Shown: in pieces, positions 4,161-40,024 of the stretch
How the letters are laid out: every line of letters begins with the position of its first letter
Position numbering within the stretch: the stretch's first letter is position 1
Assembly (NCBI GenBank): GCA_002897955.1
Contig: BDTY01000081.1
Coordinates: 1-40,446 of the forward strand
Origin: an archaeon BMS3Bbin15
GTDB lineage: Archaea; Hydrothermarchaeota; Hydrothermarchaeia; Hydrothermarchaeales; BMS3B
Direction: 5' to 3'
DNA length: 40,446 nt
Made by a program: the position numbers and the translations under genes
The notes under the pieces: generated by a model
Seen by the model: only the letters and a program-made list of their open reading frames with translations
Told to the model about the DNA's origin: nothing
The model's database searches: none

Positions 4161-4700
4161 TCAGGCCCTCCTGAATTCTTCCAGTTTGGGCACTGCAAAA
4201 TATTTACCTGAAATATGGAGTAAAGTCCTGCATTTTTCTGGATTGAGAGCTTTATCGAAGCATTTATCCTTCACATCAACCTTAACCACCTCGCCTGTAA
4301 TCCAGACGTGGTCCCCCAGCTCCCTGGCATCATACAGCCTGCATTCAAGCCAGGCATAAGCTTCCTTTATTCTCGGAGGTGATACCTCTGTTGAAGACAC
4401 TTCAGTTAAGCCAGCCTCTTTAATTTCACTTACCTCATAGGGAAAGTCCTTTTCTAGTATATGCATCAGATTACCAAAGCTTTCGTCAACAAAATTCACA
4501 ACGAATTCTTTATTTTCATTAATATTCCTCCAAGTATCGTGTCCTGGCTGAGAGGATATGCCAAATAGTGGGGGTGAAAAGCTTATAGGCGAGTTAAAAC
4601 TGAAAGGGGCAGCATTACTTATGCCTCTTTCTGATACAGTTGTAATAACAACACAGCTTCTGACATTCAATTTATAGAAATTTACCTGGTCCAGCTCCAT
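4161..4700 (-). CDS. Flavoredoxin-like FMN-binding split-barrel protein
   Basis: 179 aa of the flavin-reductase-like family (flavoredoxin type). It has the N-terminal VNFYKLNVR, then NAAPFSFNSPISFSPPLFGIS and DTWRNINENKEFVVNFV, which form the FMN site in relatives. Such proteins bind FMN and pass electrons in anaerobes; the partner is unknown. The frame extends 68 codons upstream, but ATG 4700 with AGGTG upstream fits the family start. Its stop overlaps the start region of the DUF63 gene, so the two likely form a transcript. Confidence 0.88.
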   Translation of the reverse strand: MELDQVNFYKLNVRSCVVITTVSERGISNAAPFSFNSPISFSPPLFGISSQPGHDTWRNINENKEFVVNFVDESFGNLMHILEKDFPYEVSEIKEAGLTEVSSTEVSPPRIKEAYAWLECRLYDARELGDHVWITGEVVKVDVKDKCFDKALNPEKCRTLLHISGKYFAVPKLEEFRRA

Positions 4701-29578: not shown

Positions 29579-30583
29579 ATGCTTGTTGATGACTTTGACT
29601 ACCATCTACCAGAGAATTTGATTGCCCAGAAACCTCTGGAGGAAAGAGACACCTCCAGGTTAATGGTGCTTGATGGTAGAGATATTATCCATAAACACTT
29701 CAGAGACCTCGAGAATTACATGAATAAAGGTGATGTGCTGGTTGTGAACAACTCAAGAGTAATTCCTGCAAGATTGAGAGGAAGAAAGAGCACAGGTGGT
29801 AAGATTGAGGTTCTTTTAATCAGAGAGCTTGCCACTGGCTGGGAGTGCCTTCTCAGAGGGAGAGCTGGTGCAGGCAGCGAGCTTTTTTTTGATGGTAATC
29901 TTAAAGCAAGAGTTCTGGAAAGACATAACGAGATGGCTGTTCTGAGCTTTAATGCTGGAAGCGGACTGAGAAGCATAATTGAGAGTATAGGTGAGGTTCC
30001 AACTCCGCCTTACATAAAGACAAAGCTTGAAGACAGTGAAAGGTACCAGACAATCTACTCAAAATATGAGGGTAGTGTGGCTGCACCAACTGCAGGCTTC
30101 CACTTCTCTGAAAAGCTTCTGAAAAAGCTAAAAAATAAAGGCGTGGAGATTGCTGAGATTACTCTTCATGTCGGCCCTGGAACCTTTATGCCTGTAAAGG
30201 TTAAACAAATTGAAAAACATAAAATGCACAGTGAGTTCTTCACAATTGAAGCAGGCGAGGCTGAAAAGATAAATCTTGCTCTGGAAGAGGGGAAAGGGGT
30301 GGTTGCTGTAGGTACAACCTCTGTAAGAGCGCTTGAAAGTGCTACAGGAGAGGGAAGGGTTATCCCCAAAAGTTCATATACTGATATCTTTATCTACCCT
30401 GGCTATAAGTTTAAACTAGAGTATATGGGTATGATTACAAATTTCCATCTTCCAAAATCCACTCTTCTCATGCTTGTGTGCGCCTTTGAAGGAAAGGAGA
30501 GAATTTTCAGGGCTTATGAAGAGGCTATAAAGCAGAGGTACAGATTCTACAGTTTTGGCGATGCTATGCTATTGCTGAGGTAG
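29579..30583 (+). CDS. queA: S-adenosylmethionine:tRNA ribosyltransferase-isomerase QueA
   Basis: 334 aa. DFDYHLPENLIAQKPLEERD, VNNSRVIPARL, GEVPTPPYI, SVAAPTAGFHFSEKLL, EITLHVGPGTFMPVK, VGTTSVRALES and NFHLPKSTLLMLV are all standard QueA blocks. It turns the preQ1 base in tRNA into epoxyqueuosine using SAM. QueA is bacterial; archaea normally make archaeosine and have no need of it. It is 4 nt upstream of a bacterial-type tgt, so the two form an operon probably obtained from a bacterium. Confidence 0.96.
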   Translation: MLVDDFDYHLPENLIAQKPLEERDTSRLMVLDGRDIIHKHFRDLENYMNKGDVLVVNNSRVIPARLRGRKSTGGKIEVLLIRELATGWECLLRGRAGAGSELFFDGNLKARVLERHNEMAVLSFNAGSGLRSIIESIGEVPTPPYIKTKLEDSERYQTIYSKYEGSVAAPTAGFHFSEKLLKKLKNKGVEIAEITLHVGPGTFMPVKVKQIEKHKMHSEFFTIEAGEAEKINLALEEGKGVVAVGTTSVRALESATGEGRVIPKSSYTDIFIYPGYKFKLEYMGMITNFHLPKSTLLMLVCAFEGKERIFRAYEEAIKQRYRFYSFGDAMLLLR

Positions 30584-30587
30584 TATT

Positions 30588-31688
30588 ATGTTTGAAATCG
30601 AAGCAAAGGACGGAAAAACAGAGGCAAGAGCTGGAGTTCTTCAAACAGAAAATTACAGGGTTAAAACCCCTGCATTCATGCCTGTGGCAACCAAAGGAAG
30701 TGTGAAAACACTGTCAAACCACGAACTTGCCGGTGCTGGAGTGGAAGCCCTTATTTCAAATGCCCTTCTTCTTTACCTGAAGCCAGGGATAGATGTGATT
30801 TCAGGTGCTGGAGGACTGCACAGATTTATGAAATGGAAAAGGGCAATATTTACTGACAATGGTGGTTTCCAGGCTATAAGGGAGGAGTTCTCTCCGGTTT
30901 TTTCAAAGAAAGGGATAACATTTTCCTCTCCCTTTGACAGCTCAAGACACCTTATAACTCCTGAAAAGATAATAGGTATTCAGGAAGTTCTTGGAAGCGA
31001 TGTTGCCCTTGCCCTGGATGACTGTCCAAGCTATGGCACAGGCTATAACAGGGCAGAAGATAGTGTTAAGAGAACAACAGAATGGGCAAAAAGGAGTCTT
31101 GAAGTTAAAAGCAGAGAAGGACAGCTTCTCTTCTGTATAGCCCAGGGTGGTGTTTTTCCTGAACTCAGAATAAGAAGTGCGGCGGAGCTGGCAGAGTTTA
31201 ATTTTGATGGCTATGCAATAGGAGGGCTCAGTATAGGTGAGCCAAAGAAAGTCATGATAGAAATGATTAAGATTAGTATTAAAGCTATCCCCCAGGAGAA
31301 GCCCAGATATCTTATGGGTGTGGGCTCACCTATCGAAGTTCTTGATGCAATAGCCATGGGTGTGGATATATTTGATTCAGCTTTTCCAACAAGAAATGCG
31401 AGGCATAATGCAGTGTACACAGAAAAGGGTAAGTACAATATAGCCAAGGCAAAAAATCTAATGCTCTTCGAGCCTCTTGAAGAAGGGTGCAACTGCTATG
31501 CCTGCAGGCACTACACAAGAGCCTATATAAGCCATCTTATGCGCGTATATGAAGCTCTGGGCATGCGCCTAGTCACACTCCACAACATTCATTTTACGGA
31601 GAGACTGATGAGGAATGCAAGGGAAGCTATTGTTGCAGGCGAATTTGAGGAATTCAGAGAGATGTTTAAAAACTCTTTCCTTTCATAA
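30588..31688 (+). CDS. tgt: Queuine tRNA-ribosyltransferase, bacterial type
   Basis: 366 aa, the bacterial length (archaeal TGT is longer, with PUA-linked domains). DNGGFQAIREEFSP, SDVALALDDCPSYG, GYAIGGLSIGEPK, GVDIFDSAFPTRNARHNA with the catalytic Asp, and the zinc site CNCYACRHYTRAYISHL are all in order. It swaps guanine-34 of tRNA for preQ1. No PUA domain is present. With queA beside it, this is a queuosine branch rather than archaeosine. Confidence 0.92.
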   Translation: MFEIEAKDGKTEARAGVLQTENYRVKTPAFMPVATKGSVKTLSNHELAGAGVEALISNALLLYLKPGIDVISGAGGLHRFMKWKRAIFTDNGGFQAIREEFSPVFSKKGITFSSPFDSSRHLITPEKIIGIQEVLGSDVALALDDCPSYGTGYNRAEDSVKRTTEWAKRSLEVKSREGQLLFCIAQGGVFPELRIRSAAELAEFNFDGYAIGGLSIGEPKKVMIEMIKISIKAIPQEKPRYLMGVGSPIEVLDAIAMGVDIFDSAFPTRNARHNAVYTEKGKYNIAKAKNLMLFEPLEEGCNCYACRHYTRAYISHLMRVYEALGMRLVTLHNIHFTERLMRNAREAIVAGEFEEFREMFKNSFLS

Positions 31689-33385: not shown

Positions 33386-34534
33386 ATGTTTCATACTGCC
33401 ACTGAAGAAGAAATAAAGAGAGGATATACCACAGACATATACTTCAGAAGGACAAAAGAAGTGGTAAAAAGAAAAAATCTGGACAGGAAGGTTATAGCCG
33501 AAGTTTCTGTTAGCTCCCTTCCCGAGGGCTATACATGGGGTATTCTGGCAGGAATTGAAGAAGTTGCAAAACTTCTCGAGGAATATAATATCAATGTTTA
33601 CTCTATGCCGGAAGGGAGTATATTTTACGAGAGAGAGCCTGTTCTGAGAATAGAAGGTTACTACTCCGAATTCTGCGAACTTGAAACTCCTATCCTCGGG
33701 CTGATATGCCAGGCCTCAGGAATAGCCACAAAAGCAGCCAGATTCAAAAAACTTGCAGGAGAAAAACCATTACTGAGTTTTGGAATAAGAAGAATGCACC
33801 CTGCAATATCACCAATGATAGACAGAAGCGCCTATATAGGCGGATGCGATGGTTTCTCTGGCATTGCTGCAGAAAAGCTGCTAAATGAAAAGGCAAGTGG
33901 AACCATGCCACATGCTTTTATAATAATAGTCGGGGACCAGAAACTCGCCTGGACATACTATGACAAAGCTCTTCCAGAGAATATTCCGAGAATCGCCCTT
34001 GTTGACACCTACTGCGATGAAAAAATGGAGGCTGTATGGGCTGCAGAAACAATAAAAGACCTCAATGGTGTGCGTATAGATACACCCGGGTCGAGAAGAG
34101 GAGACATAAGAAAGATTGTGGAAGAGGTAAGGTGGGAGCTTGACATAAGAGGTTACAAAAATGTGAAAATTTTTGTATCTGGAGGAATAAAGGAGGAGGA
34201 TATTGTTAACCTTAAACTTGTTGACGGGTTTGGAGTTGGAACAAGCATAAGTGCAGCATCAACAATAGACTTTGCTCTTGACATTGTTGAAATTGACGGC
34301 ATGCCTGTGGCCAAGCGAGGAAAGCTGGGAGGAAAAAAGCTTGTATACAGATGTTCGGCATGCCTCACCGGACAGGTAATCCATGACAAGGAAAAAGAAA
34401 AACCAGTCTGCAATAAATGCTCAAATACCATGGAGGAGATACTTCTACCCCTAATCAAAAACGGAAAACTGGTTGCAGAACTACCGGAAGCAGAGAAAAT
34501 AAGGGAAAAGGTTCTGGAGCAACTGAAAATTTAA
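33386..34534 (+). CDS. pncB: Nicotinate phosphoribosyltransferase (archaeal zinc-ribbon type)
   Basis: 382 aa. YTTDIYFRRTKEVV at the start, FGIRRMHPAISPMIDRSAYIGG carrying the phosphate/base site, VDTYCDEKMEA, IDTPGSRRGDIRKIVEEV and FVSGGIKEEDIV, then a C-terminal zinc ribbon CSACLTGQVI..CNKCSNTM. This matches the Thermoplasma acidophilum-type enzyme. It makes nicotinate mononucleotide from nicotinate; that product is also the CobT co-substrate. ATG 33386 has GGTGA 5 nt upstream; a GTG at 33377 is in frame. Confidence 0.9.
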   Translation: MFHTATEEEIKRGYTTDIYFRRTKEVVKRKNLDRKVIAEVSVSSLPEGYTWGILAGIEEVAKLLEEYNINVYSMPEGSIFYEREPVLRIEGYYSEFCELETPILGLICQASGIATKAARFKKLAGEKPLLSFGIRRMHPAISPMIDRSAYIGGCDGFSGIAAEKLLNEKASGTMPHAFIIIVGDQKLAWTYYDKALPENIPRIALVDTYCDEKMEAVWAAETIKDLNGVRIDTPGSRRGDIRKIVEEVRWELDIRGYKNVKIFVSGGIKEEDIVNLKLVDGFGVGTSISAASTIDFALDIVEIDGMPVAKRGKLGGKKLVYRCSACLTGQVIHDKEKEKPVCNKCSNTMEEILLPLIKNGKLVAELPEAEKIREKVLEQLKI

Positions 34535-35484
34535 AACGTTCCAAGCATTCCGGGCATGAAAGTCTTAATCACATAAAAAATTAAATAAGCAATTAGAGCC
34601 ATAGGAGGAGCGAATTTAAGCCCTTTGCGCATATCTCCGTACATAACAACACCTATCATCAGAGCCGCAGCCACTGCCTGAGCCACAACATAAAAGCTCA
34701 GTGCCTGGACAATCTCTGCCAGCTGTTTAAGGGGATACTGGGCTGCCAGTGCAGAGTTTCCCACAGCTGCTTTCATGATAGTCGGAAGCGAAGCAGCAAC
34801 TCCCATAACAAAAGGACCTGCCATGAGTGAAGCTATAACAACAAAAGATATCTGCTGCATGGTCAGGGACCTCCTCTCCCTCTGAATAACTCTCACAGCC
34901 CTTATATCCTCTGCCACCTCCTCCAGAACATCACTTATAGGTCCTCCCACCTCAATACCCTCAACAAGAAGTCTTATTGCTCTCTCAATCTGCTTGCTCC
35001 CTGTACGCTTTGAAAATGCAAGAAGAGCTTCCTTCAAAGGTCTCCCTCTTCTCATCTCAAGCACAATCTTCGAAAACTCATCACTCAGTGCACCATAGTC
35101 CGAGTCAGAAATCTCCTGAATAACAGCATCGAGCACCAGTCCTGTCTTTATTGAAACAGACATGTGATGAAGGGCATCAGGCAGAAAATCCTCAACCTGA
35201 GCCATTCTCTTATTTGCCTGCATCACAGGGTACATGTACATTATAGCCATTATCATACCAAATGCGCCCAGTCCAGCCAGAATATTTACAAGAAAGCTGA
35301 CAATGATAAAGATAGGAATTCCAAGAGCTGTGAAAATTCCAATCCATTCGGTAGCTGAAAAAGTTATATAGGCTTTAACAAGAAGAAGCTCCATTCTTGC
35401 CAGAAACTTCTTTGGAATGAGTCTTCTCGGTATTCTTACCCTCTTCGCAAGCCTCTGGAATAACTTTTCCTCTTCTTCTACCAT
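34531..35484 (-). CDS. Type II/IV secretion membrane protein (TadC/FlaJ-like), second copy
   Basis: 317 aa. A T2SSF-type core (about 95-225) with MSVSIKTGLVLDAVIQEISDSDYG and RRGRPLKEALLAFSKRTGS, flanked by membrane helices at about 45-85 and three near 215-315. It sits in the membrane and couples to the ATPase two genes upstream. It converges on pncB with a 4-nt overlap and starts 2 nt after the preceding TadC-like gene. It has less N-terminal extension than its neighbour. Confidence 0.88.
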   Translation of the reverse strand: MVEEEEKLFQRLAKRVRIPRRLIPKKFLARMELLLVKAYITFSATEWIGIFTALGIPIFIIVSFLVNILAGLGAFGMIMAIMYMYPVMQANKRMAQVEDFLPDALHHMSVSIKTGLVLDAVIQEISDSDYGALSDEFSKIVLEMRRGRPLKEALLAFSKRTGSKQIERAIRLLVEGIEVGGPISDVLEEVAEDIRAVRVIQRERRSLTMQQISFVVIASLMAGPFVMGVAASLPTIMKAAVGNSALAAQYPLKQLAEIVQALSFYVVAQAVAAALMIGVVMYGDMRKGLKFAPPMALIAYLIFYVIKTFMPGMLGTF

Positions 35485-35486
35485 AA

Positions 35487-36620
35487 CTACACCTTCGGTT
35501 CAAATTTCTTTATCATTACTGACATATAAACCGCTGCCCCAAAGAATACAAAATAAACCACCCACATCATCATGGGCGGGATAAGAACACCTCTTATTGC
35601 AAAACTCATTGCTATAACAAGTATTGTTATGAGCACCGGAGCTACCACTGTAAGAAACATATACATAAGAGAAAGAGTGTTCAGCACCTGAATGAAGTCC
35701 TTCAGCTTCATCCTCATCTCAGTGGCGGTTTCCTCTGCAATAACCTTGAGAGTATTGGCAAGATTACCCCCTGTTTTAAGAGTAGAAATTATCTGCCTGG
35801 TTGCTTTCTTAAAGCCAGCAGAATCAATTCTCAGATTAATTCTGTCATAAGCCTCTTCTATAGTTGCACCCCTCTCAATCTCCATCATAGCTCTCTCAAA
35901 TTCCTCACTGAGCACTCCATATTCGCTATTTGATATACTCCGCATAGTTTCAAGAAGGCCTGAACCAGAGCTGAGCATGGTTGCCATGTGTCGCAGAGCA
36001 AAGGGTAACTCTCTGCTGAAGTCATCGCTTCTCGCCTTCACCTTCTTTCTTGGATATATCCTTGAATACATAAAAGCAAACATTCCAAGTATAGGGCCTA
36101 TTACAAAACCCAGCAGAGTACCTATACTACCGAGCATTAAACCGCCAACCACACTCACTAAAATACCGGAAATTATAGCCAGAATAACGCTGATGCCTAT
36201 AGCCAGACCAACATACTTTGAGGCTGGCATAATTATATTTGCCCTGTAGAGGTCTTCCTGTATATTCTTAAAAAAAGAGCCAGGCATAGAGGAGTATTTT
36301 GAGAAGAAATCGGAAATTATAGTAGCAACTCTAACCGAAAAAGGAATTTTTAACTCTTCCCTTTCAGAAATAAGATTCAGTCCATCCTCCTCCGGGAGGT
36401 CTTCATAGGTCACCTCCTCCTTCAGCTTCATCAGCTTATCTTCAATAAGTTTCTTTCTCTCCTCCTTTTCCCTGACTCTCCTCTCCATGATGGCCCTTGC
36501 TGCATCATCCTGTTCCTGGAGAGCCATAGACACCTCCTTTGCCCTCTTCAGAGTAACCTCGGCACCTGTAACTGTCTTTTCTCCTATCTTTTCAATCAGC
36601 CTTATCAATATGTTTGACAT
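35487..36620 (-). CDS. Type II/IV secretion membrane protein (TadC/FlaJ-like), first copy
   Basis: 377 aa. A charged N-terminal coiled region (about 30-85, MERRVREKEERKKLIEDKLM) precedes the membrane part. The core has MLSSGSGLLETMRSISNSEYGVLSEEF and TLKTGGNLANTLKVIAEETATEMR, the paired T2SSF motifs. Helix pairs lie at about 135-190 and 310-370. With the next gene it forms a pair of platform proteins, as in archaeal pilus and Tad systems. 5 nt separate it from the ATPase gene. Confidence 0.88.
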   Translation of the reverse strand: MSNILIRLIEKIGEKTVTGAEVTLKRAKEVSMALQEQDDAARAIMERRVREKEERKKLIEDKLMKLKEEVTYEDLPEEDGLNLISEREELKIPFSVRVATIISDFFSKYSSMPGSFFKNIQEDLYRANIIMPASKYVGLAIGISVILAIISGILVSVVGGLMLGSIGTLLGFVIGPILGMFAFMYSRIYPRKKVKARSDDFSRELPFALRHMATMLSSGSGLLETMRSISNSEYGVLSEEFERAMMEIERGATIEEAYDRINLRIDSAGFKKATRQIISTLKTGGNLANTLKVIAEETATEMRMKLKDFIQVLNTLSLMYMFLTVVAPVLITILVIAMSFAIRGVLIPPMMMWVVYFVFFGAAVYMSVMIKKFEPKV

Positions 36621-36625
36621 CTTCT

Positions 36626-39600
36626 CTACCTGTTAAGAGTGTGTATCTCAACCTCTTCAAGTAAGGTTTTGGAGTCAGCATAATATCTGTTGATAATCTT
36701 TGACACATCTTCAATCTTTACAATATTATTTTCAGTCATCCATCTTAAAATCTTCTCCCTGCCTTTTAAATCCTCTTCCAGCTCTTTTACTGTTATCCCT
36801 CTGAGTTTTGAAAGCTTCTGTTTTAATATTGAAGGCTGCCCTGTCAGTACAAGGCGGTCATCCTTTGGTTCATATATGTAAACATAATTTAGACTTATAC
36901 TGCCTTCCTCATCCTCTGTAACAACCTCAGCAACCTCAGTAATTCTTCTAAGGATTTTACTATCTTCACTGTAAATTTTATTCTGCATGAGAATTAGATT
37001 AAGGGCAGGTAGCATAATTTTAGGTACATTCATAGGTGGATTTGTAAGCCTGATTATAGTTTCCTTGGCAGAGTTGCTGTGCAGTGTACCCATACAGCCG
37101 TCATGCCCTGTATTCATAGCTGTGAATAGTGTCCTTGCCTCCGCACCTCTGACCTCACCAACAATTATTCTGTCCGGGCGCATTCTCAGAGTGTTTTTGA
37201 CCAGGTCATCCATTGTAATCTCACCCACTCCCTCGACATTGGGTGGCTTCGTTTCAAATCTAACAACATGCTCAATAGGCAAAGTAAGCTCTGCAGTATC
37301 TTCAATAGTTATAACCCTCTCTGTTGTCGGTATAAAGCTGCCGAGAACATTCAGAGTTGTCGTTTTACCCGAGCCCGCACCTCCCGCTGTGAGAATATTC
37401 CCTGGCTTTATTCCAAGACCTTCCACAATCATCCAGAGATAGGCAGAAACCTCAATACTCAAGGTTCTGTAATCTATGAGATTTACAACTGTCAGAGGGT
37501 CTGCCTTGAACTTTCTTATGGTTATTGTGGGGCCATCAATAGAAATTGGCGGAACTGTGGCATTTACTCTTGAACCATCCGGAAGGCGAGCATCAAGAAG
37601 AGGTGAAGACTTGTCAATTCTCCTTCCCACTGAAGCAGCAATTTTCTCAACAATCCTTATGGCATCTTCATCAGTTTCAAACTTAAGATTGGTTATGCAG
37701 CTTCCATAGTTACTGTGAATAACATATATGGGCTTGCCAGTGCCAATCACCATTATCTCCTCAAGCTGTTCGTCATCAAGAAGAAAATCAAGCAAGCCAT
37801 AACCAACCATATTATTCACCACAAGCCTTGCAATATCCTTTCGCTTTGAGAAGGGAAGCTCTGAAAATCTCCTCTCGATTATTTCAACTACTTTCCTGAA
37901 CAGAATCCTCCTTACCTCTTCCTTGTCCTCAAAGTTATCAGGGTCAATCTCAACCTCTTTTATGGCCAGATTTTCAAGTTCCCTCATTATTTTCATTTCT
38001 CTCTTTCTGAGAGGGGGTATTCTCACAACATATTTTGGATTCTTCAGGGTCTTAACCTTTACAATCTTCTTTTCGTCATCCTTATAGAGAATCTCACCTT
38101 CCTCTTCTTTCTCGGACATAAGGGTATAGGTTGTCCTCTTTAAAGCTGGTTTTACCTTCTGTTTTAATGGATAACCTTCTATCTCCATGAGAAGCTCATC
38201 AGGATTAATATAATATTCATTTATAATCCTATCAACATTTTTCAGCCCCTTAACATTGTTTTCCTTCATATAATTTATAACCTTAACTCTTCGCTCTATC
38301 TCAGCTTCCACACCTTCAAAAGAAACTCCCCTCAACTCAGCTATCTTCCTCAGAAGCACACAGGGTGTACCGGTAGGCTTTACCTTATCATCCTTGGGGT
38401 CCCATTCGTAAATAATATTCACCTTTGGCATATTGTCTTCATTCGCAATTACCTCAGCAATCTCACTAATTCTCCTGACAGTTTTGCCCATGTAGGAGAA
38501 ACGGTTCTGCATGAATATAAAATCAAGAGAAGGAATCATTATCTCAGGAACACTCATTGGCTCGGAATTAAGCCTCGTAATAGTTTCTTTGGCTGTATTT
38601 GCATGAACTGTTCCAAGGCATCCGTTCTGCCCTGTGTTCATGGCTGCAAGAAGTGTCATAGCCTCCTTACCTCTGACCTCACCAACAATTATTCTATCGG
38701 GACGCATTCTCAGAACATTTTTTAGAAGAATCTCCATACTTATCTCGCCCCTTCCCTCAACATTTGTAGGTCTCGTCTCCAGTCTTATCCAGTGCTCAAG
38801 TGGTAGCTGAAGCTCTGCAGTATCCTCAATGGAAATCACCCTATCCACCCGTGGTATGAAGCTGCCAAGACAGTTGAGAGTTGTGGTTTTTCCAGAACTT
38901 GTACCTCCGCTTACAAGGAAATTAGCAGGCTTAACACCATAACCTTCCACAACAAACCATAGAAAGCCAAGAAGCTCTGGCGTCATGGTGCCAAAGTTCA
39001 TTATGTCCACTATAGTTAAGGGGTCTACCTTAAACTTTCTTATAGTCAGAGAAGGGCCATCAATGGAAACAGGAGGTATTGTGGCATTAACTCTTGAACC
39101 ATCCGGAAGGCGAGCATCAAGAAGAGGCGATGTTAAATCAACCCTTCTTGCAATACTTCTTGCTATCCGGTTTATAATATTCATTATTTCCTCTTCATCT
39201 TCAAAAATCACATTGGTTCTGCACATTCCATACGTTCTATGGTAAACATATACACTTTTGCCTGTGCCTATAACCATGACCTCTTCAAGATTATCATCAT
39301 TCAGCATAGGTTCAAGCAGACCATAACCCACCATATTCTGGACTATAAGTTCAGCAAAGGCATACCTCTTATTTTTTGGAATCTCTGAATAATGGAGGTC
39401 TATCAGAGCGGTTACCTCCTTCATGAAGGTATCCCATCTCTTCGTCCTGCTGGAAATATTGTCAGGGTCTATATTTATTTCAGCTATTGCACGTTGTTCA
39501 ATAGCATTTATCTTTTCTCTGTCTTCATCCGAGAGGTCAGGAAGAAATATGATATAGTAGGGCAGTTTCTCCCCAGTTTTTCTTACAATTCTGTACCTTT

Positions 39601-40024
39601 CTGTTTCCTTGAGCACTTCACCAACAATTTCCTCGCTGAGACTTTTTATCCTGTCAAATGTCCCAAAATGGTCTGATGTCCTGCTCATTGATTTTTCTTT
39701 ATAAATAGAACCTAGAATTCCCCCCATCTGACTTCCCCCTCTTTCCTCCTCACCCTGTCTTTCTACTGCTTCTGTATTTTTCAATTCACCAAGACTGGAA
39801 GTGGGTTCACTATCAACTTTCTTTTTCATGGCAGAAACTTTTTTCAGATCAAATTTAATGCTCTTTTTTTTATGTCCCCCTTGTTCCCCTCTAAGTATAT
39901 CAGCACTTTTTTTTGTTTTGATTTTAGATATGAGCTCATCTATGGCATCATCACTGTCATTTTCACTTCTACTATTACTTTCCTTTTTTTTCTTATCAAA
40001 AAACTCTATGGGCATAACTACCAT
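36626..40024 (-). CDS. Tandem-duplicated TadA/GspE/VirB11-type secretion ATPase
   Basis: 1132 aa, about twice the usual 450-550. After a charged disordered head (1-130) two full ATPase modules follow. Module 1 (about 130-620) has Walker A GGTSSGKTTT near 370, the Asp-box RIIVGEVRGKEAMTLLAAMNTG and GTVHANTAKETITRL. Module 2 (about 640-1132) has GGAGSGKTTT near 884, RIIVGEVRGAEARTLFTAMNTG and GTLHSNSAKETIIRL. Both share SPLLDARLPDGSRVNAT and look active. It powers a pilus or secretion machine with the two TadC-like proteins downstream. ATG 40024 is used, 40015 possible; no pilin gene is visible here. Confidence 0.93.
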   Translation of the reverse strand: MVVMPIEFFDKKKKESNSRSENDSDDAIDELISKIKTKKSADILRGEQGGHKKKSIKFDLKKVSAMKKKVDSEPTSSLGELKNTEAVERQGEEERGGSQMGGILGSIYKEKSMSRTSDHFGTFDRIKSLSEEIVGEVLKETERYRIVRKTGEKLPYYIIFLPDLSDEDREKINAIEQRAIAEINIDPDNISSRTKRWDTFMKEVTALIDLHYSEIPKNKRYAFAELIVQNMVGYGLLEPMLNDDNLEEVMVIGTGKSVYVYHRTYGMCRTNVIFEDEEEIMNIINRIARSIARRVDLTSPLLDARLPDGSRVNATIPPVSIDGPSLTIRKFKVDPLTIVDIMNFGTMTPELLGFLWFVVEGYGVKPANFLVSGGTSSGKTTTLNCLGSFIPRVDRVISIEDTAELQLPLEHWIRLETRPTNVEGRGEISMEILLKNVLRMRPDRIIVGEVRGKEAMTLLAAMNTGQNGCLGTVHANTAKETITRLNSEPMSVPEIMIPSLDFIFMQNRFSYMGKTVRRISEIAEVIANEDNMPKVNIIYEWDPKDDKVKPTGTPCVLLRKIAELRGVSFEGVEAEIERRVKVINYMKENNVKGLKNVDRIINEYYINPDELLMEIEGYPLKQKVKPALKRTTYTLMSEKEEEGEILYKDDEKKIVKVKTLKNPKYVVRIPPLRKREMKIMRELENLAIKEVEIDPDNFEDKEEVRRILFRKVVEIIERRFSELPFSKRKDIARLVVNNMVGYGLLDFLLDDEQLEEIMVIGTGKPIYVIHSNYGSCITNLKFETDEDAIRIVEKIAASVGRRIDKSSPLLDARLPDGSRVNATVPPISIDGPTITIRKFKADPLTVVNLIDYRTLSIEVSAYLWMIVEGLGIKPGNILTAGGAGSGKTTTLNVLGSFIPTTERVITIEDTAELTLPIEHVVRFETKPPNVEGVGEITMDDLVKNTLRMRPDRIIVGEVRGAEARTLFTAMNTGHDGCMGTLHSNSAKETIIRLTNPPMNVPKIMLPALNLILMQNKIYSEDSKILRRITEVAEVVTEDEEGSISLNYVYIYEPKDDRLVLTGQPSILKQKLSKLRGITVKELEEDLKGREKILRWMTENNIVKIEDVSKIINRYYADSKTLLEEVEIHTLNR

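Follow-up and report, generated by a model that had tools for sequence, protein, structure and literature searches.

A phylum-specific secretion ATPase with two modules in one chain in the Hydrothermarchaeota, most likely the motor of an EppA-type pilus

Proteins of the T2SSE family of secretion ATPases normally form homohexamers and carry one module per chain as a rule, and this rule is broken by a tandem ATPase of the archaeon BMS3Bbin15, which has two per chain. Its gene lies in a window (the whole stretch of DNA that was analysed, 40,446 nt) that spans contig C81 from end to end, in a genome of 1.74 Mb (G000). The tandem form is a phylum-specific new variant of a known family of secretion-ATPase motors, and none of the open-access papers searched describes a secretion ATPase in tandem form. 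We consider it fairly probable that the protein is the motor of an Epd pilus, that it arose by an ancient duplication and in-frame fusion, and that three of its chains close a ring of six domains.

The tandem ATPase is encoded by one uninterrupted open reading frame (36626-40024, minus strand, as are all features of the gene given below), which opens with an ATG and specifies 1132 aa. The start codon used by its relatives aligns with the ATG at window position 40015, and the true start is therefore probably located three codons downstream. Two T2SSE matches (Pfam, E 6.7e-94 overall) are found in the protein, with PilB3_C at the C-terminus. A charged, probably disordered head (residues 1-132, 39629..40024, 39% charged) is followed by module 1 (residues 133-620, 38165..39628), which comprises a three-helix bundle, an N-terminal domain, an ATPase domain and C-terminal helices. 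A linker of about residues 621-642 (38099..38164), across which the spacing from Y605 to Y665 ranges from 26 to 97 residues among relatives, leads to module 2 (residues 643-1132, 36629..38098), with the same domain order plus the PilB3_C terminus. The modules are 51% identical across 490 aligned residues, and the DNA copies that encode them lie 1524 nt apart, with 71-72% identity. The first-pass annotation had described two complete modules in one chain, and each indeed has its own Walker A, Asp-box Glu, Walker B and His box. In module 1 these include the Walker A GGTSSGKT (residues 373-380, 38885..38908; GGTxSGKT is invariant in module 1s, and K379 corresponds to CpaF K287), the Walker B RIIVGEVRG (residues 444-452, 38669..38695; E449 corresponds to CpaF E357 and is invariant) and the His box GTVHANTAKE (residues 471-480, 38585..38614; H474 corresponds to CpaF H382 and is invariant). 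The counterparts in module 2 are GGAGSGKT (residues 881-888, 37361..37384), RIIVGEVRG (residues 952-960, 37145..37171) and GTLHSNSAKE (residues 979-988, 37061..37090), in which K887, E957 and H982 are invariant. An AlphaFold2 model of module 2 alone (10 sequences, pLDDT 68) can be aligned over its full length with GspE (2OAP) and FlaI (4IHQ), and with a TM score of only ~0.5 it lends support to the fold alone; that of the whole tandem (5 sequences, pLDDT 42, pTM 0.29) was unusable.

The head had also been singled out as unusual. The head is real, yet it is neither conserved nor unusual: among tandem relatives 38-158 aa precede module 1, the single-module protein of G026 has 146 aa ahead of the corresponding point, and a disordered head is also present in C. 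crescentus CpaF and in CpaF class II (PMC12019362). It is also the part under the weakest constraint, with dN/dS of up to 0.59 versus 0.02-0.18 for the modules.

The tandem gene is kept in 20 of the 23 species-level genomes of Hydrothermarchaeota, all of one class, and is distributed over eight family-level groups. Both modules lie within one open reading frame in 19 of the 20; in G009 the gene is split across two contig ends, where the matches overlap slightly in the profile. The genomes without a tandem are G015, which is 62% complete, and G020 and G022, both members of family f9. Two adjacent but separate ATPase genes on contig C8 of G015 (L027:3585-6398) were set aside, as they belong to another paralogue clade; the second of them looks interrupted, with 100-aa and 366-aa open reading frames abutting at 4682. 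A search with the tandem profile of 1034 genomes from six other archaeal phyla (115 + 345 + 5 + 19 + 152 + 398) found no genuine tandem, two of these searches being weak, i.e. that of the phylum of G028, run at a strict threshold with zero matches, and that of the phylum of G024, with two candidates scored per genome. Two kinds of candidate were discarded. The apparent tandem in G154 (L056, region G154:C29:1401-4643), from the phylum of G026, is 100% identical over 6143 nt to the locus of the hydrothermarchaeote G002, and is thus contamination on a misbinned contig; frames of 816-1234 aa in the phylum of G026 match only the N-terminal part of one module and were read as inteins. In many species of that phylum and not in others, the single-module ATPase appears to carry a long insert (e.g. 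G066:C1:1082943-1084004), probably the known KlbA intein. The count of single versus double forms proposed in the first-pass annotation hence gives the double form for 20 of the 23 species-level genomes within the phylum, and single-module proteins only, apart from the misbinned G154, in the 1034 others.

The two modules also have separate histories. In a quick tree covering the order, 19 module 1s form one clade (support 100) and 18 module 2s another (99); in a more careful tree the module 1 clade (100/99) and the module 2 clade (96/95) were recovered again, with the species grouped similarly in both. Such separation had been put forward as the test of an old fusion, and from it we conclude that the duplication and fusion, as traced by module sequences, are older than the order. 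For the tandem of G021, which belongs to another order, a shared and a separate origin fare alike in the AU test (p 0.2 for each). An imperfect 1.5-kb repeat inside a metagenome-assembled genome could also be the mark of an assembly artefact, a chimera or a recent duplication of one gene, a reading to which we give almost no credence, as the copies, 71-72% identical and 1524 nt apart, are too distant for assembly collapse, the same gene occurs in independent assemblies of 19 other species of the phylum, and module 1s and module 2s fall in separate clades. Separate genes in a second assembly, or a very recent duplication, had been named beforehand as grounds for giving up the fusion; what was found is the tandem gene in 19 other assemblies, and a DNA identity of 72% between the copies.

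Two platform genes follow the ATPase gene on the same strand. Platform protein A (377 aa, 35487..36620, minus strand) begins 5 nt downstream of the ATPase stop and has one T2SSF domain (E 6.9e-21); platform protein B (317 aa, 34531..35484, minus strand) begins 2 nt downstream of platform A, and also has one (E 1.5e-18). Both are adjacent in relatives. Platform A weakly matches the N-terminal half of the FlaJ of the same genome, and platform B matches its C-terminal T2SSF region. Epd and Tad systems have been reported to carry a pair of platform genes as standard, through fission of a two-domain ancestor (PMC6668835). The proposal that the two TadC-like genes echo the doubling of the modules does not hold, since the same A/B pair also stands behind the single-module ATPases of G026, G029, G030 and G024: the genes are the halves of a split platform gene, and are paired there too because of that split.

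The order ATPase, platform A, platform B is kept in the relatives and is then followed by short class III pilin genes, such as a 68-aa product in G012 (AQGAIEYILLAGG); such genes follow the operon in G002, G004, G008, G010, G014 and G017 as well, and in several relatives they come immediately after platform B. Upstream of the operon, MinD-type ATPases and phosphoglycerate kinase are encoded in several relatives. A class III pilin signal was obtained from each of the 20 tandem genomes (PF04021, above or near the cut-off) and from G015, and none was found in G020 or G022, the family f9 genomes without the tandem. The first-pass annotation had proposed a look for class III pilin genes outside the window, and they are present elsewhere in G000, i.e. 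a 62-aa pilin on contig C117, and pilin-like genes on contig C34 beside a prepilin peptidase (Peptidase_A24), which matches Arc_PepC better than Arc_PepC_II. Contig C117 also carries, at L061:7567-8656, a gene pair (products of 70 aa and 80-85 aa) that is tandemly repeated ~540 bp apart. The reported hallmarks of the clade 1 or Epd systems are two TadC genes, class III pilins, a FleN/MinD ATPase and EppA (PMC4858521; PMC6668835). Two contiguous single-T2SSF platform genes stand beside the ATPase here, as in Epd systems, and modules 1 and 2 group with the single-module proteins of G026 and G029, apart from the C20-type paralogues (95/92, a value that bears on the grouping and not on the branching order). 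Taken together, the split platform, the MinD context and the class III pilins, which are present in every tandem genome and in neither genome of family f9, indicate that the tandem ATPase most likely drives an EppA-type (Epd, 'clade 1') pilus and is not the archaellum motor FlaI.

The name FlaI is what the NCBI model NF058587 would give, as the whole protein scores 625 bits over a cut-off of 550; this cut-off is passed because two domains are summed, and each module alone, with 321 bits, stays well under it. Furthermore, the genome has a separate locus in archaellum order on contig C57, which encodes a KaiC-type ATPase, an ATPase of 553 aa and a two-part platform of 554 aa, and an archaellum role is thus highly improbable. 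The Tad ATPase model TIGR03819 (cut-off 373) behaves in the same way, with 255 and 243 bits for the modules and 494 only as a sum, and the other summed NCBIfam scores are 329 for TrbB (cut-off 305) and 310 for VirB11 (cut-off 250); each module alone falls below all four cut-offs. Automatic annotation would therefore misname the tandem ATPase. Interruption by an intein, as in KlbA, is not seen, both modules being contiguous and complete. Several other loci were noted in passing. On contig C120 of G000 (L052:4608-6177) a further secretion ATPase extends over two overlapping frames (395 and 179 aa), reflecting a frameshift, a pseudogene or an assembly error. Loci L035, L037, L041, L049 and L050 encode single-module ATPases related to the tandem modules, with no platform gene detected beside them, and L037 and L041 adjoin KaiC-like ATPase genes. 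Within the window, the bacterial-type queuosine genes queA and tgt are direct neighbours (29579-31688) in this archaeal genome.

Both modules look catalytic from their residues, as the first-pass annotation had suggested. In an alignment of 18 species with CpaF as the reference, the equivalents of CpaF K287, T288, E312, R347, R217, R223, D215, E357 and H382 do not vary in any of the 18 module 1s or the 18 module 2s, and this includes the arginine fingers (R217, R223 and R347); the exception at the R217 position is a lysine, seen only in module 2 of G021. Both modules are under similar purifying selection, with dN/dS of 0.02-0.15 for module 1 and 0.03-0.18 for module 2. In CpaF, one arginine finger acts on the nucleotide of the neighbouring chain (PMC12019362), and with the fingers and active-site residues kept, each module appears able to hydrolyse ATP and to complete the site of its neighbour. 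The platform contacts of CpaF have been predicted in loop 8 and the pore loop (G204, R205, R206, D208, E331 and G334; PMC12019362), and the equivalents of these residues are kept in both modules. Consistent differences between the modules are seen among relatives at the pore-loop tip (Lys/Arg at 425 in module 1 versus mostly Glu at 933 in module 2) and in loop 8 (hydrophobic at 297 versus Lys/Arg at 805), which are suggestive of specialisation. Residues that distinguish the modules showed no significant excess at the positions predicted to contact the platform (p = 0.21; circular-shift p = 0.26), and the sequence thus gives no demonstration of module-platform matching. Charge pairs at alternating interfaces (563/603 in module 1 versus 1073/1113 in module 2, with opposite fixed charges) were dropped as candidates, the single-module relatives and G001 breaking the pattern.

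In published models, three platforms sit above six ATPase units, and each platform has two cytoplasmic domains that touch successive ATPase subunits (PMC10790770; PMC10191384), and the CpaF model places the ATPase units under three CpaG/CpaH pairs (PMC12019362). A two-module chain fits this 6:3 repeat exactly, with three chains, six ATPase domains and three A/B pairs. The three-chain ring is the most plausible geometry and the best supported, in which the chain number, the register and any specialisation of the modules are what we infer. An ancient duplication and in-frame fusion would have joined two ATPase units into one chain, and three such chains would close one ring in the order M1-M2-M1-M2-M1-M2, with two subunit kinds fixed in alternation and a maximum symmetry of C3. 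Each platform A/B pair would have one M1-M2 chain beneath it, and ATP turnover would drive a platform of three such pairs; the covalent partition would then be inverted relative to single-module motors, with the ATPase units joined in pairs and the platform split in two. C3 structures have been reported for FlaI and archaeal GspE2 (PMC5424180), and the PDB titles of PilT and PilU rings contain 'C3ocococ', which we read as alternating open and closed subunits. The solved hexamers of CpaF (PMC12019362) and PilB have C2 symmetry, which counts against the three-chain model, as a ring of alternating M1 and M2 cannot have exact C2.

Six chains might instead build a motor of two rings, with the module 1s in one and the module 2s stacked on it, an arrangement that we consider unlikely. 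AAA+ tandem ATPases such as p97 do stack, tandem ATPases of the KaiC kind form stacked rings, and a linker of ~20 residues would permit it; but only one of two rings could face the platform, and the predicted contact residues are kept in both modules, which argues for a single ring. Moreover, the modules are under similar constraint, and in G021 the modules are separated by fewer residues than the tails of typical single ATPases add up to. Labour might also be divided within one ring, one module serving mainly extension and the other retraction or regulation; the charge differences at the pore-loop tip and in loop 8 agree with this, and it would supply a dedicated reversing function in archaea, which have been reported to be without PilT (PMC4858521). 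This seems decidedly unlikely to us, since the active sites of both modules appear fully competent and under equal constraint, CpaF extends and retracts with identical subunits (PMC12019362), and the residues that differ show no concentration at the platform surface.

Among known systems, the clade 1 or Epd ATPase of Thermococci and methanogens ('KlbA') provides the single-module relatives that score highest outside the phylum (54% identity to each module, G026) and shares the order ATPase, platform A, platform B, the class III pilins and MinD-type ATPases in its loci, and the charged head; it differs in having one module per chain, with an apparent intein in many Thermococcus-like genomes and no tandem form found. 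The Tad ATPase CpaF/TadA is similar in domain order, arginine fingers, split platform (TadB/TadC) and an optional disordered head, but it has one module, and its solved homohexamers are C2-symmetric (PMC12019362). The best solved-structure matches over whole modules are archaeal GspE (afGspE, 2OAP) and FlaI (4IHQ, 4II7), which differ in having one module; their identical chains adopt two conformations, whereas the tandem has two kinds of subunit fixed by a covalent link. KaiC, p97 and ClpB have two ATPase modules per chain, but are from other ATPase families and form stacked rings.

The tandem ATPase is a marker at the level of the phylum, and its covalently paired subunits would fix the register in the motor. 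How pilus ATPases are matched to their platforms, and whether they cycle with C2 or C3 symmetry, is unsettled, as both symmetries occur among solved rings and the stoichiometry is described as unclear in a review. Either module of the tandem could be inactivated separately, so that exactly alternate sites of the ring would be dead, which homohexamers do not readily permit. More tentatively, the tandem ATPase, platform A and platform B may form a natural C3 motor of 3:3:3, with module 1 always working on one half of the platform and module 2 on the opposite half, a possibility to which we give a little over one chance in three. If true, this motor would be the inverse of the usual six ATPases to three two-domain platforms, and a strict C2 rotary cycle of opposite identical subunits would be ruled out by its construction.
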